DNA from: a virus | IMG/VR virus record: IMGVR_UViG_3300029448_000303 | Coordinates: 1-28,554 of that record | Length of the DNA: 28,554 nt | Direction: 5' to 3' (one strand) | Shown here: piece after piece, positions 19,117 through 26,094 of the stretch | Layout of the letters: every line of letters begins with the position of its first letter | Position numbering within the stretch: position 1 is the stretch's first letter | The notes under the pieces: model-generated | Seen by the model: the letters and a program-made list of their open reading frames with translations, nothing else | Told to the model about the DNA's origin: nothing | The model's database searches: none | Program-made: the position numbers and the translations under genes

Positions 19117-19194
19117 CTAATCTTTGTTAAAAAACAATGCTATTATTAAAGCGAGTATTGCAGTTAGATAAAATATGGTTATTGCCTCAAACAT
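19117..19194 (-). CDS. 25-residue membrane peptide
   Basis: The frame starts with ATG at 19194, overlapping the stop of the SET gene by eight bases, and ends with TAG at 19117-19119. The peptide MFEAITIFYLTAILALIIAL plus FFNKD is a single hydrophobic helix with charges only at the ends, as in other short membrane peptides. It occupies most of the 109-base gap before the small terminase gene. Possible roles include modulating a host membrane protein. A chance frame cannot be ruled out, but such a clean membrane helix is unlikely in random AT-rich DNA. Confidence 0.45.
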   Translation of the reverse strand: MFEAITIFYLTAILALIIALFFNKD

Positions 19195-19486
19195 CGTACA
19201 AAGTATAATACACAGTTAGTTCTTCGTTAGCCTTTATAGGTTTAATGGTGTATAGATTGCCTATCCTGCCCTTTTTTAATATAAAGCAGTTAGGACTATT
19301 ACTATGGTTTAAAAAGCCTCCTAAGGGTGTTCTAATTTGTTCTTCTAAATAGGGGTTTATAGCATCTACTTTATGGTGTGTTATTCCTAAGTCGTTTCCT
19401 GCTTCTATTTTTTCTGTTGCAAAGACACCAAGACCTTCTATCTTGCTTTTCTTTATAGTTAGTTCTTTAGGTAGTGGTTTATACAT
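19187..19486 (-). CDS. SET-domain protein (putative lysine methyltransferase)
   Basis: 99 residues that are almost wholly SET core. Residues 18-23 (GLGVFA) match the first SET strand pair, 60-67 (NHSNSPNC) the conserved NHS-x-x-PN motif of the S-adenosylmethionine pocket, and 84-94 (IKANEELTVYY) the I-x-x-x-E-E-L-x-x-x-Y end with the catalytic Tyr. There are no pre- or post-SET Cys clusters. The expected reaction is methyl transfer from S-adenosylmethionine to a Lys side chain of an unknown protein, phage or host. It overlaps the stop of the DnaA-like gene by eight bases and the start of a 25-residue membrane peptide. The fold assignment is strong; activity and substrate are unknown. Confidence 0.85.
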   Translation of the reverse strand: MYKPLPKELTIKKSKIEGLGVFATEKIEAGNDLGITHHKVDAINPYLEEQIRTPLGGFLNHSNSPNCFILKKGRIGNLYTIKPIKANEELTVYYTLYDV

Positions 19487-19892
19487 TTAAAAATTTTTTT
19501 AAGTTTCTATAGCGTTGACTTATATTCCTGTGTTCTAATAATAACCTTGTGTACTTTTTTCTGTAGTACATTTCAGGGTTAAGTAGTTTTTGCGTGTGTC
19601 TTAGTTTCTTACCTGTTTGTTTGCGTATTTGTTCGTCAAGTTTAGTAAACAGTTCTAAATAGCTTTGTTCGTATTCTATAAGCACATTATCAAACAACTT
19701 TATACCGTGTAAGACCGTAGCGTGATCCCTACCTACAGGTCTGCCAATATTACTTAAAGGTTGTTGTGTATGTATCCTACATAGCTTAAAGTAAACTGCT
19801 CTGGTATATACTATATCTCTTTTACGTGTTTTAGTGTTTAATGAGTTGTTTGTTTCTTGCTCTACTAATGTTTTAATTTCTTGTGGTGTCAT
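19479..19892 (-). CDS. DnaA domain IV-like DNA-binding protein
   Basis: 137 residues. Residues 22-65 (TRKRDIVYTRAVYFKLCR, then LSNIGRPVGRDHATVLHGI) match the helix-turn-helix and signature loop (GRDHxTVxH) of DnaA domain IV, which reads DnaA boxes. The AAA+ ATPase domain is absent. The C-terminal 60 residues are helical and Lys/Arg-rich. It could bind phage or host origin-like sites, acting as a replication initiator adaptor, a host DnaA competitor or a transcription regulator. No perfect TTATCCACA box was noticed in the window. The start ATG overlaps the stop of the preceding small gene (ATGA). Confidence 0.75.
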   Translation of the reverse strand: MTPQEIKTLVEQETNNSLNTKTRKRDIVYTRAVYFKLCRIHTQQPLSNIGRPVGRDHATVLHGIKLFDNVLIEYEQSYLELFTKLDEQIRKQTGKKLRHTQKLLNPEMYYRKKYTRLLLEHRNISQRYRNLKKFLNV

Positions 19893-20056
19893 ATTTCAAA
19901 TTGTTCTATTATTGCTTTTTGTATCCCTGCACAGGCTTCATATTCTTCGTGTTGCTCATACATTTTCATTGTTTCATACATTTCTTGATAACTTGCACCA
20001 TTGTTTATATCAAGTAATGCCATTAAGTAAAATTCATTCTTTTGTTTTTGGTTCAA
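19889..20056 (-). CDS. Small hypothetical protein (55 aa), intact copy of duplicated gene
   Basis: I take the TTG at 20056, which overlaps the HNH stop, as the start (a later ATG is at 20023); the stop TGA overlaps the start of the DnaA-like gene. The protein is acidic and helical, with FYLMALLDINNGASYQEMYE and, after that, YEACAGIQKAIIEQFEI; the YEACAGI block is familiar from small phage proteins, function unknown. The first 29 codons are duplicated upstream at a 480-base offset (start 20536), where the reading frame is cut off by the HNH gene. TTG starts in both copies overlap a preceding stop, suggesting translational coupling. Confidence 0.6.
   Translation of the reverse strand: MNQKQKNEFYLMALLDINNGASYQEMYETMKMYEQHEEYEACAGIQKAIIEQFEI
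19971..20056. repeat. Direct repeat flanking HNH gene, downstream copy
   Basis: This segment matches 20451-20536 without gaps at an offset of 480 bases. Over the first 66 bases about 60 positions agree, with lower identity toward the TTG start. It encodes the first 29 residues of the small gene. Some differences are synonymous, so the copies have diverged or came from different phages. Confidence 0.85.
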
Positions 20057-20457
20057 AACATTTCTAATTGATTAGTTTTAGTTTTAAGTTTATTGTTTTC
20101 AGAACGTGTTACCCATTTTAAATTTAACAAATGATTGTTGTGTTTGTTTTCATCTATATGATCAACTTGATTGTATTCTAATTTATTTATGTTTTCTAAA
20201 AACGTACAAGCTACTAACCTATGGTGAAGGTAAGTTTTTATTTTACCATCTTCTTGTTGCATTCCAATAACTAAATAACGATTTGATGATTTAGTAGGTG
20301 CTTTTGTTTTGTTATTTTTAAAATCGTATATTTCTCCCCTTTTGTTTATACCATATCTTTTATTTATATGTTCTACTACCTCACAATTATATGCCCAATG
20401 TTTTATAGGCTTAAATTGAAGTAAATAGTTTTCTTCAAAAAGGGTAAGTTGTTTCAT
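20053..20457 (-). CDS. HNH endonuclease (homing-type)
   Basis: The start is taken as ATG at 20457 (MKQLTLFEENYLLQFKPIKH, 134 residues); an upstream ATG at 20481 is also possible but lies deeper in the duplicated segment. An N-terminal NUMOD4-like part (YGINKRGEIYDFKNNKTKAP, then NRYLVIGMQQEDGK) is followed by HHRLVACTFLEN and VDHIDENKHNNHLLNLKWVT, the classic phage HNH nuclease layout with catalytic His in VDHID and Asn in the NNHLLNL part. It nicks or cuts DNA, typically in related phages that lack the insert. The gene is nested in a duplicated small gene, as expected for a free-standing homing endonuclease. Confidence 0.85.
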   Translation of the reverse strand: MKQLTLFEENYLLQFKPIKHWAYNCEVVEHINKRYGINKRGEIYDFKNNKTKAPTKSSNRYLVIGMQQEDGKIKTYLHHRLVACTFLENINKLEYNQVDHIDENKHNNHLLNLKWVTRSENNKLKTKTNQLEMF

Positions 20458-20536
20458 ACATTTCTTGATAAGTTGCCCCATTACTTATATCAAGTAATGC
20501 CATTAGGTAAAATTCTTTTATTTGTTGGTTATTCAA
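20435..20536 (-). pseudogene. Truncated copy of the small gene, interrupted by HNH
   Basis: Starting at TTG 20536, which overlaps the upstream nuclease stop, the frame encodes 33 residues: 29 match the intact copy (23 identical), then four unrelated residues (TYPF) before TGA at 20435-20437. Similarity ends at GAAACA; from there the sequence is the HNH gene's. It may still be translated, coupling the nuclease upstream to the HNH start (20457) inside it. Confidence 0.7.
20451..20536. repeat. Direct repeat flanking HNH gene, upstream copy
   Basis: Partner of 19971-20056. The HNH start codon (20457) falls within this copy, in a different reading frame. The two copies bracket the HNH gene, which suggests that insertion happened with a duplicated or imported stretch of the target gene. 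Confidence 0.85.
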
Positions 20537-21035
20537 TATTTAAATTTTTAACCCAAAACACAAAATCATCAAGGGTTTTAATATATTTTTTTTCTATAAA
20601 ATAAAAGTCTTTTGTATATTTTTTAATTTTATCAAATCTACTTTGCACAAACCAATTATCTTTTTGGCTAACAGGTATTACAAAAGTTGCATTAGTTTTT
20701 TGTGAAATATTTATTATAGCAGATACATTGTGTTTTTTTTTGTCCCAATTTTCTACCATATCAACAATAATATTTTCATAAGGAAAATCATAAATATTAT
20801 TATATGCAACACTAATAGATTTTACTTCAATATTAAAAATGTGTTTATCTGTTTTAATAAATAAGTCACCTTTATCTGTATAATTATTTATTTTTTTATT
20901 TTTAGGTCTTATTCTTAATGAATCAATATGAACATTTAAACCTTTATCTTCAAGTATTTTTTTAACTTGTAATTGATAATCGTACCCTTTTTTTAATTGA
21001 TTAACAAAAGTGCTATGTCCTTTATCCCAATCCAT
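20529..21035 (-). CDS. PD-(D/E)XK-like nuclease, AT-rich accessory gene
   Basis: 168 residues with an N-terminal helix (NQLKKGYDYQLQVKKILEDKG), then YTDKGDLFIKTDKHIFNIEVKS: D57, E70 and K72 have the spacing of a PD-(D/E)XK active site (strand D, then E-x-K). The rest is Lys/Asn/Ile-rich and ends FVFWVKNLNIE. Codons are strikingly A/T-rich, visibly more than in neighbouring genes, which hints at recent acquisition. It starts right after the RecE-like gene's stop and is followed by a coupled TTG start. A homing, restriction or Holliday-junction enzyme is possible. Nuclease fold is probable; substrate unknown. Confidence 0.6.
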   Translation of the reverse strand: MDWDKGHSTFVNQLKKGYDYQLQVKKILEDKGLNVHIDSLRIRPKNKKINNYTDKGDLFIKTDKHIFNIEVKSISVAYNNIYDFPYENIIVDMVENWDKKKHNVSAIINISQKTNATFVIPVSQKDNWFVQSRFDKIKKYTKDFYFIEKKYIKTLDDFVFWVKNLNIE

Positions 21036-21800
21036 TTATAATATACCTCGCATTACATACTGATCTAAATCATTGTCTTGTTCAAAGAAGTATTTGTAGT
21101 TTTCAATACCTTGTATAAATTTATTCTTACCACGTTCTAAAAACTCGTCTGTTACTTCAAAGATTCCAATATCACAACTGTTCTTGTCTACAACTAAAAA
21201 GGTAAACTTCGTACAGTTAAACAATTCCATATACAACCAAGCCTGTAGGTCGTAACCGTATTTGTCCGCTGACCATTTAAAAGAACTAAGGTCTGCTGTA
21301 CTTTTAAGATCTATAAGATGATCACCTTTTAGTATATCAGCCTTACCTCTTATTGCTATTCCTTCCATCATTTCAATAGCTGGTACTTCAAACTCTGCTT
21401 TGTTTAGTAATTGTAATGCAGCTTCATTTCTTAGTAGCGCATCTGTTAAACGTTCTGCTGCAAACTTTTCCTTTACTAAATACACTTCACCGTGTTCTTC
21501 TTTAGCTTGCTTGTAGACGTTTGTGTTGCGTGTACTTGCCGATACAAAATGTAACTTATCTAACTTTTGTGGTTCAAGTATCATCCAATGAAACAACTTA
21601 CCAGCAATCAAAGCAGGTGTTTCAGAATCGCTTCCGTACTTAATAACGTTTCTGTATGTCTTAGGGCTTTTTAAGATTGTTTTAATACTACTGCTGCTTA
21701 ATGCGTGTTTACCTAAATGACCGTAGTAAAATTCATCATCGTACATTTGAGTTAATATTTCATCTTTACCCCAATGTTCACCGTTTAATAATGTAATCAT
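21036..21800 (-). CDS. RecE-like exonuclease (PD-(D/E)XK)
   Basis: 254 residues. Residues 33-45 (ALSSSSIKTILKS) and 66-72 (AGKLFHW) match the N-terminal pattern of RecE/exonuclease VIII-type phage nucleases, with H71 conserved. The active site is KADILKGDHLIDLKST, giving D155, D164 and K166, followed by the Q-x-x-x-Y motif YDLQAWLYME (Q186). Such enzymes resect double-stranded ends to 3' tails for the annealing protein; here ERF (25570-26094) and SSB are in the same module. It is coupled to a small upstream gene by ATGA. Identification is strong by motifs. Confidence 0.85.
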   Translation of the reverse strand: MITLLNGEHWGKDEILTQMYDDEFYYGHLGKHALSSSSIKTILKSPKTYRNVIKYGSDSETPALIAGKLFHWMILEPQKLDKLHFVSASTRNTNVYKQAKEEHGEVYLVKEKFAAERLTDALLRNEAALQLLNKAEFEVPAIEMMEGIAIRGKADILKGDHLIDLKSTADLSSFKWSADKYGYDLQAWLYMELFNCTKFTFLVVDKNSCDIGIFEVTDEFLERGKNKFIQGIENYKYFFEQDNDLDQYVMRGIL

Positions 21801-25569: not shown

Positions 25570-26094
25570 TTACACCCTTGCAAGTTCATCTTGTATTTTT
25601 TTGCTGACCTTGTATTTAGATTTTATACTATCTAAATCACCTCCACCTTTTAGATATTCAATAGCCTTACTGTATTCAGGTGTGTTTTGATTTAACCATC
25701 TTTTATCATCTGTAATAGTAGATGTGCTACTTGCTAAATTACCATCGTCATCTTCTGCTTGTAAGCCTAATAAACTTGCAAGTGTATATCTACGATAGTA
25801 AGTTATAGCAGAACCTAATTTCTGTGGATCGTTAATATCTGGCAAAGTAAGACTGCTGTCTACACTACCTCCGTTGTCAATGCAAATAATTCTGCTTGTA
25901 ACCATATTATCCATTATAGGCTGAACTAATAAAAGTTTGTGTTTAGCTAATAATGGGTTTAGTTGTTTAATAAGTGAATTTATATCAAAATACTTTGACT
26001 TGTAAAATGGGTTACTTGCATCTTTACTTACTGCACCTATTTCCTGCTGTAGTTTAAACAGCTTATTGTAGATGTTAGTTTCTGTCTTTGCCAT
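25570..26094 (-). CDS. erf: ERF-family single-strand annealing protein
   Basis: 174 residues. Signature blocks are NPFYKSKYFDINSLIKQLNP (residues 28-47) and DPQKLGSAITYYRRYTLASL followed by LGLQAEDDDGN (about 89-119), the hallmarks of the ERF recombinase family (P22 Erf). The C-terminal 55 residues form a charged helical tail. It anneals complementary single strands produced by the RecE-like nuclease. It lies after a 40-residue gene and before SSB. Length is normal for the family core. Confidence 0.9.
   Translation of the reverse strand: MAKTETNIYNKLFKLQQEIGAVSKDASNPFYKSKYFDINSLIKQLNPLLAKHKLLLVQPIMDNMVTSRIICIDNGGSVDSSLTLPDINDPQKLGSAITYYRRYTLASLLGLQAEDDDGNLASSTSTITDDKRWLNQNTPEYSKAIEYLKGGGDLDSIKSKYKVSKKIQDELARV

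Follow-up and report, generated by a model that had tools for sequence, protein, structure and literature searches.

Why does a phage carry the start of one small gene twice, on either side of an HNH endonuclease gene? The question arises from IMGVR_UViG_3300029448_000303, an IMG/VR viral record and metagenomic contig of 28,554 nt (28.5 kb), whose full length is called the window here. On its minus strand, a RecE-like gene is followed by a PD-(D/E)XK-like gene, a 29-codon copy of the start of the small gene, the HNH gene, the intact small gene and a gene for a DnaA_C-like HTH protein. Our analysis points, with a probability of about three in four, to a recombination scar in a hypervariable cassette slot, left by the joining of two versions of the slot. 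The features are as follows.

25570..26094, minus strand: Erf-like single-strand annealing protein (phrog_2324, E=9e-35), a candidate recombinase for short-homology joins
21036..21800, minus strand: RecE-like PD-(D/E)XK exonuclease (DUF3799; phrog_412, exonuclease VIII), the conserved upstream border of the slot
20529..21035, minus strand: PD-(D/E)XK-like nuclease of 168 aa with a GD-x-EVK pattern, the first slot cargo
20450..20536, minus strand: 29-codon 5' fragment of the small gene, of the resident allele type, grouping with the related locus L006
20435-20536, minus strand: stub ORF of 33 aa, the upstream copy plus 4 codons of HNH sequence, ending ...EMYETTYPF*
20449..20458, minus strand: junction TATGAAACAA, the end of small-gene homology with the HNH start codon, a potential microhomology of 9-10 nt
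20053..20457, minus strand: HNH endonuclease of 134 aa with an I-HmuI-like domain, the second slot cargo
20437..20451, minus strand: QLTLF, N-terminal clamp-binding-like motif of the HNH protein, conserved in relatives
20056..20070, minus strand: QLEMF, C-terminal clamp-binding-like motif of the HNH protein, conserved in relatives
19889..20056, minus strand: intact small gene, 55 aa, TTG start, the downstream border of the slot (family alignment A1)
19479..19892, minus strand: DnaA C-terminal-domain-like HTH protein, the conserved right flank
19187-19486, minus strand: SET-domain protein (PF00856, E=3e-10; phrog_28741), flanked by the DnaA_C-like gene and the terminase genes

A SET-domain protein such as the one at 19187-19486 is unusual in a small phage.

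Two copies of one gene start

The sequence-only reading had the HNH gene bracketed by two ungapped copies of the small gene's first 29 codons, and this description held in every checkable detail apart from the start of the HNH gene. The copies are offset by exactly 480 nt and share 23 of 29 residues and 75 of 87 nucleotides; synonymous differences, AAC/AAT, TTA/CTA and GGT/GGG among them, separate them as well. No other ungapped 87-mer on that strand matches better than 43/87. The upstream copy is truncated at the HNH gene: homology ends sharply after codon 29, at ...GAAATGTATGAAACA|A, and the stub is without the conserved C-terminal half of the small protein (Y-E-A-C-A-G-I, YEACAGI). Each copy starts with a TTG that overlaps the stop of the preceding gene, the upstream one over the stop of the PD-(D/E)XK-like gene (TTGAATAA) and the intact one over the HNH stop (TTTTGA). 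The small gene remains start-stop coupled to the gene before it, which is the layout that the earlier suggestion of coupled translation described. The HNH start codon does lie inside the upstream copy, out of frame within the stub. Comparison with relatives best places it at the ATG at 20457 (MKQLTLF...), and the 142-aa HNH ORF of the mechanical list begins 8 codons too early.

The same junction occurs in IMGVR_UViG_3300030095_000600, a separate public contig that is 99.96% identical to the window across 12.15 kb, with a few differences. A contig from a metagenome could be an assembly chimera of two co-occurring phages, and the lineages of the two alleles do co-exist, but this second contig makes an assembly artefact scarcely credible, and we rejected it.

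A hypervariable slot with conserved flanks

Six scans of viral contigs gave about 270 related loci (L numbers below). The RecE-like gene and then the small gene were found in 229 loci, with the RecE-like gene upstream of the slot in 229/229 of those used, and 153 have distinct sequence between the two. The phages form an uncultured, mostly marine family. The small gene has no cultured relatives in the phage collection and no relative in the bacterial genomes, which yielded four weak RecE-type contigs. The interval between RecE and the small gene (a gene of ~50 aa) is swapped rapidly between two conserved flanks, and holds nothing, DNA-modification enzymes or nucleases. Grouping of 152 slots gave 52 layouts, and 24 slots are empty, with a RecE-small gap <100 bp or abutting genes. 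Pairs of loci at 90-98.5% RecE identity share any slot family in 39% of cases, whereas they share a family among the three flanking genes in 99% (upstream) and 100% (downstream).

Pfam and PHROGs place the slot enzymes among N6/N4-methyltransferases, C5-methyltransferases, TET/JBP oxygenases, TET-associated glycosyltransferases (TAGT) and Mom. Further contents are ParB-like proteins, an amino acid:DNA transferase, thymidylate-synthase clusters with PLP-enzyme and MazG, and HNH. For the small PD-(D/E)XK-like proteins, recognition relied on the sequence pattern alone: D54, G56, D57, E70, V71 and K72 are invariant in their alignment (A4), and the 168-aa protein of the window had no Pfam or PHROG match and no significant PDB match. 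The contents thus belong to the same Pfam/PHROG families as the TET/TAGT, Mom, ADDT and thymidine-hypermodification systems of phages, but in the slot they replace one another, and are exchanged with nucleases, at a single locus of a single phage family. The locus is therefore a natural library of dozens of interchangeable sets for DNA modification or nuclease activity at one otherwise conserved position, and may be useful in the search for new base modifications. A six-gene slot cluster at L010:418-4702, with thymidylate-synthase-like, PLP-enzyme and MazG-like genes, is a candidate thymidine hypermodification pathway.

HNH-free relatives had been expected to carry a single intact copy of the small gene directly after the RecE-like or the PD-(D/E)XK gene, and both arrangements were found. 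The single copy directly follows RecE in the 24 empty slots, and it directly follows the PD-(D/E)XK-like gene in the HNH-free loci L062, L182 and L214; this gene is the only cargo in L062, L182 and L261 and is preceded by one gene in L214. RecE, HNH and a single full small gene stand in a row in L003/L004, L034 and L080. Both presumed parental layouts, RecE–PD-(D/E)XK–small and RecE–HNH–small, therefore exist, and the window slot holds two cargoes, each of which is found elsewhere directly before a single intact small gene. The scar gave this prediction of two parental layouts, and public data contain them both. No HNH-free relative with both copies was encountered: none of the other slots among the 153 has them, and a long repeat of the small-gene start is confined to the window's phage.

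These layouts bear on whether the nuclease inserted itself. The HNH protein of the window matches phrog_59 (E=1.6e-24) and, in hmmsearch, the HNH homing endonuclease I-HmuI (PDB 1u3e, E=8.2e-15), and it falls just under the curated cut-off for HNH_3. The region around the invariant H100, N107, H109 and N112 of the HNH alignment indicates that an I-HmuI-related catalytic core is present. M-x-Q-[LF]-x-L-F-E is conserved in the window protein and four relatives that are 50-63% identical, and Q-[LI]-E-M-F in 5/5 HNH proteins; an AlphaFold model (mean pLDDT 55) was not used. An active free-standing homing HNH might have cut an HNH-free small allele near codon 28-29 and been copied in with co-conversion of the flank and sloppy repair on one side. 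Its kinship with I-HmuI, the break inside a conserved gene, the apparently co-converted 5' end of the adjacent small gene and the recurrence of HNH in the same slot of further lineages (L003/L004, L034, L080/L081 and L157) would all suit such an event. However, HNH starts at the RecE stop, not inside the small gene, in all other carriers, and the slot takes dozens of unrelated cargoes equally. The intact copy, 480 nt downstream, keeps the sequence leading up to the breakpoint uncut (CAAGAAATGTATGAAACAA stands in both copies), and an enzyme with its target there would cut its own genome. The match to 1u3e covers only chain residues 9-100 of 174, and the window protein showed no counterpart to the remainder of I-HmuI. 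We regard homing as unlikely.

The locus thus resembles those of free-standing HNH and I-HmuI homing endonucleases in its I-HmuI-like domain and in an insertion that breaks into a conserved gene, where sequence next to it was apparently replaced, and differs in that no intron or intein was seen at the window locus, the position is a slot that accepts unrelated cargo and the possible target is intact in cis. HNH carriers share the intergenic slot, not a nucleotide position, and the slots of most non-carriers hold unrelated genes. The description of the locus as an endonuclease patch was not borne out, since HNH directly follows RecE with a single full small gene in L003/L004, L034 and L080 and unrelated gene sets occupy the same position. 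Because dozens of unrelated gene sets fill this position, the HNH gene looks like ordinary cassette cargo for which homing is unneeded, and it is probably that rather than a self-inserting patch.

Origin of the two alleles and a proposed recombination route

The two copies of the small-gene start are different alleles. The upstream copy matches L006 at 81/87 nucleotides, more than the 75/87 it shares with the downstream copy, and the downstream copy matches L003/L004 at 82/87 and L006 at 79. Neighbour-joining with 500 bootstraps made L006 the nearest relative of the upstream copy in 77% of replicates and recovered the split of these two in 73%. The nearest relative of the downstream copy was L003 in 72% and the upstream copy in 0.2%; the grouping of the downstream copy is weakly resolved (splits of 34-53%), with few sites among the 87 nt separating L003 from L006. 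If the gene start had been duplicated in tandem in a single genome, with later invasion by HNH and divergence of the fragment, the geometry alone would be accounted for. We rejected this reading as very improbable, for each copy is closer to a different phage lineage than to the other copy, and an uninvaded tandem copy is present in 0/153 slots.

The RecE region of the window is 95.4% identical to L006 at the nucleotide level, and the DnaA_C-like gene is 96-100% identical to L006 per 45-nt bin, while L003 drops to 73-98%. The 5' end of the intact small gene is nearest to the HNH carriers L003/L004, whereas the sequence further downstream is nearest to L006. The backbone on either side has L006 as its closest relative, and the upstream copy, which groups with that locus, is therefore taken as the resident allele. 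The sequence-only reading had the nuclease arriving with, or by recombination through, the allele of a related phage. Copies from different lineages and recombination between phages agree with this, but the upstream copy is the resident allele, not the foreign one, and the sequence comparisons make it more likely that the import was HNH together with the 5' end of the downstream copy. An exact donor was not found among the loci: the HNH of L004 is only 50% identical and the PD-(D/E)XK-like protein of L062 only 58%. These are too distant, and the parents are therefore given as lineages, not as identified phages. The HNH of L157 is 63% identical to that of the window.

The sequence (T)ATGAAACAA is common to the small gene and the HNH start of the window, and the 10 nt of the junction recur in the intact copy at 19969-19978. 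Codons 26-30 of the small gene read ...ATGTATGAAACAATG..., and the HNH proteins of the family begin M-[KND]-Q-[LF]-x-L-F. In L157, HNH begins TATGAAGCAACTTAC and the RecE stop and HNH start read TTTTATGAAGCAACTTACG; this locus carries ATGAAGCAA, and the microhomology may in part be ancestral to one parent only. The left join is compatible with recombination at the 9-10 nt microhomology (T)ATGAAACAA, in which each base may have come from either parent.

We propose that an L006-like phage with RecE, the PD-(D/E)XK-like gene and its own small allele took in HNH and the 5' end of a second small allele from an L003/L004-like phage. The left join would be non-allelic, at the 9-10 nt of identity between codons 27-30 of the resident small gene and the HNH start. 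The right join would be an ordinary homologous exchange within or just after the small gene. The likely agent would be the phage's own RecE/Erf annealing system; the window phage encodes the RecE-like exonuclease, the Erf-like annealing protein and NinG/Rap, and ERF is present in 9/10 family contigs. Rad52-like phage recombinases tolerate divergence, and the minimal pairing length of Red-beta is 23-27 bp (PMC3945230). Since 10 nt is shorter than this minimum, the left join would have been a rare illegitimate event. The stub would be tolerated, since the chain of overlapping starts and stops is kept (PD-(D/E)XK stop and stub TTG, HNH ATG in the stub, HNH stop and small TTG) and the second copy gives a full small protein. 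We infer that the rare join was retained because it preserved this chain, and HNH need not have moved itself. As in phage mosaicism by Rad52-like/Erf annealing proteins (PMC3945230), related phages would have swapped blocks at short or imperfect homology, but the left join of the window has at most 9-10 nt of identity, lies inside a gene and leaves a readable allelic scar. The data support recombination between phages, and an HNH-driven patch is less likely than passive cassette exchange.

Other slots show probable scars, of which the short ones, L177 above all, are only suggestive. At L157:2765-2806, past a cassette of HNH and PD-(D/E)XK-like genes, a fragment of the RecE 3' end (WFLE[N/D]RD; 22 bp, 91%) immediately precedes the small gene and is in frame with it. 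In L080/L081 and in L047, the first ~9 small-gene codons form the start of another slot gene (29 bp, 90%, and 33 bp, 85%, respectively). A slot gene of 107-126 aa begins MNKEIAKEL... in L080, L081, L047 (the F11 gene), L117 and L243, with DNA nearly identical to the first ~9 small codons, and this start region was probably captured from the small gene. The otherwise empty slot of L177 keeps, at 1379-1408, CAAAATCCAATTAGGATGTTTTGA, which reads as a methyltransferase-type tail (QNPIRMF*). In the window, routine cassette exchange has left an unusually clear trace, a legible fossil of phages stacking or exchanging whole cassettes for DNA modification or nucleases.

Clamp-binding-like termini of the slot proteins

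Unrelated slot proteins end alike: HNH in ...NQLEMF, methyltransferases in ...SQIRMF and ...NQLRMF, a C5-type methyltransferase in ...NQLEMF, a glycosyltransferase in ...QQLQLF, Mom in ...VQLTMF, the amino-acid:DNA transferase in ...EQIKLF, a P-loop protein in ...QQLNLF and a GNAT/AAA protein in ...NQISLF. The bacterial clamp-binding motif is defined as Q-phi-x-[LM]-[FL] (PMC11139829). It lies in the last 10 residues in 8/41 unrelated slot families and 0/183 other families of the same loci (Fisher p=6.9e-7), a test made on the loci on which the idea was formed, with a regular expression taken from the literature (PMC11139829). Internally the motif shows no enrichment (4/41 slot and 11/183 other families), and residue-class permutations reach <=2 slot families, except the near-equivalent Q[LM]x[LIVMA][FL] with 6. 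The motif is recurrent, not universal; 1/4 Mom proteins, for example, carry it. Among 46 genes examined, 22 different DNA sequences encode it, and of 41 slot genes with the motif, 14 are not last in their slot and have no contact with the small gene. The motif therefore is not a site of DNA recombination and not an artefact of gene overlap, and we rejected the constraint that the last codon shares a base with the small-gene TTG as a sufficient cause of ...QLxMF ends. Inheritance with the enzyme family was rejected as well: in Acinetobacter and Listeria phages, Mom homologues with 39-42% identity have the terminus ...FYQ instead, and the terminal motifs of the family HNH proteins are absent from one annotated HNH homologue outside the family, that of the crAss-like phage 'tikkala'.

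From these termini we infer that the slot enzymes may be tethered to a sliding clamp. A bacterial-type clamp gene was found in 0/10 family contigs tested, some of them possibly incomplete, and the host beta clamp would therefore be the partner. By a finely balanced judgement, the slot might be a swap-in socket for enzymes that act on newly replicated DNA, in which unrelated enzymes (N6/N4- and C5-methyltransferases, TAGT, Mom, amino-acid:DNA transferase, HNH and others) each gained a terminal peptide that docks on the host beta clamp. If so, incoming cassettes would act at the replication forks of phages whose contigs yielded no clamp gene, and the window's HNH protein, with one docking peptide at each terminus, would be a nuclease tethered to the clamp. 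The alpha-glucosyltransferase of T4 binds the gp45 clamp (Sommer 2004, as cited in PMC13216743); a 2026 study confirmed this binding and found that it is not the main determinant of the modification level (PMC13216743). Both cases place a phage DNA-modifying enzyme on a replication sliding clamp, but the binding is only predicted for the slot family, and T4 uses its own clamp whereas the slot family would use that of the host. Our literature search on clamp-binding motifs in phage modification enzymes found nothing direct beyond this T4 pair. The clamp-like tails raise the idea that DNA modification, and perhaps nucleolytic attack, is generally tethered to the host replication clamp in flavobacterial-type phages. 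By itself the scar is moderately interesting, and it is the slot with its recurring clamp-like tails that calls for follow-up by a specialist.

An N-terminal clamp-like motif, QINIF (MKQINIFGE...), occurs in L063, L137, L142, L207 and others, in families F4 and F17 (a 145-aa protein and a methyltransferase). C-terminal tails of the slot kind, ...NQLEIF and ...SQLRLF, also occur in cultured phages of Nonlabens and Flavobacterium, on a protein of 253 aa encoded next to a TET gene and on a methyltransferase. In P12024L (L282, JQ823123.1), a cultured Nonlabens phage, four genes stand in a row: a 72-aa slot-type gene, one for a TET oxygenase, one of 253 aa with the terminus NQLEIF, and a methyltransferase gene with the terminus SQQTLF. 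This phage is a possible laboratory model for slot cassettes.
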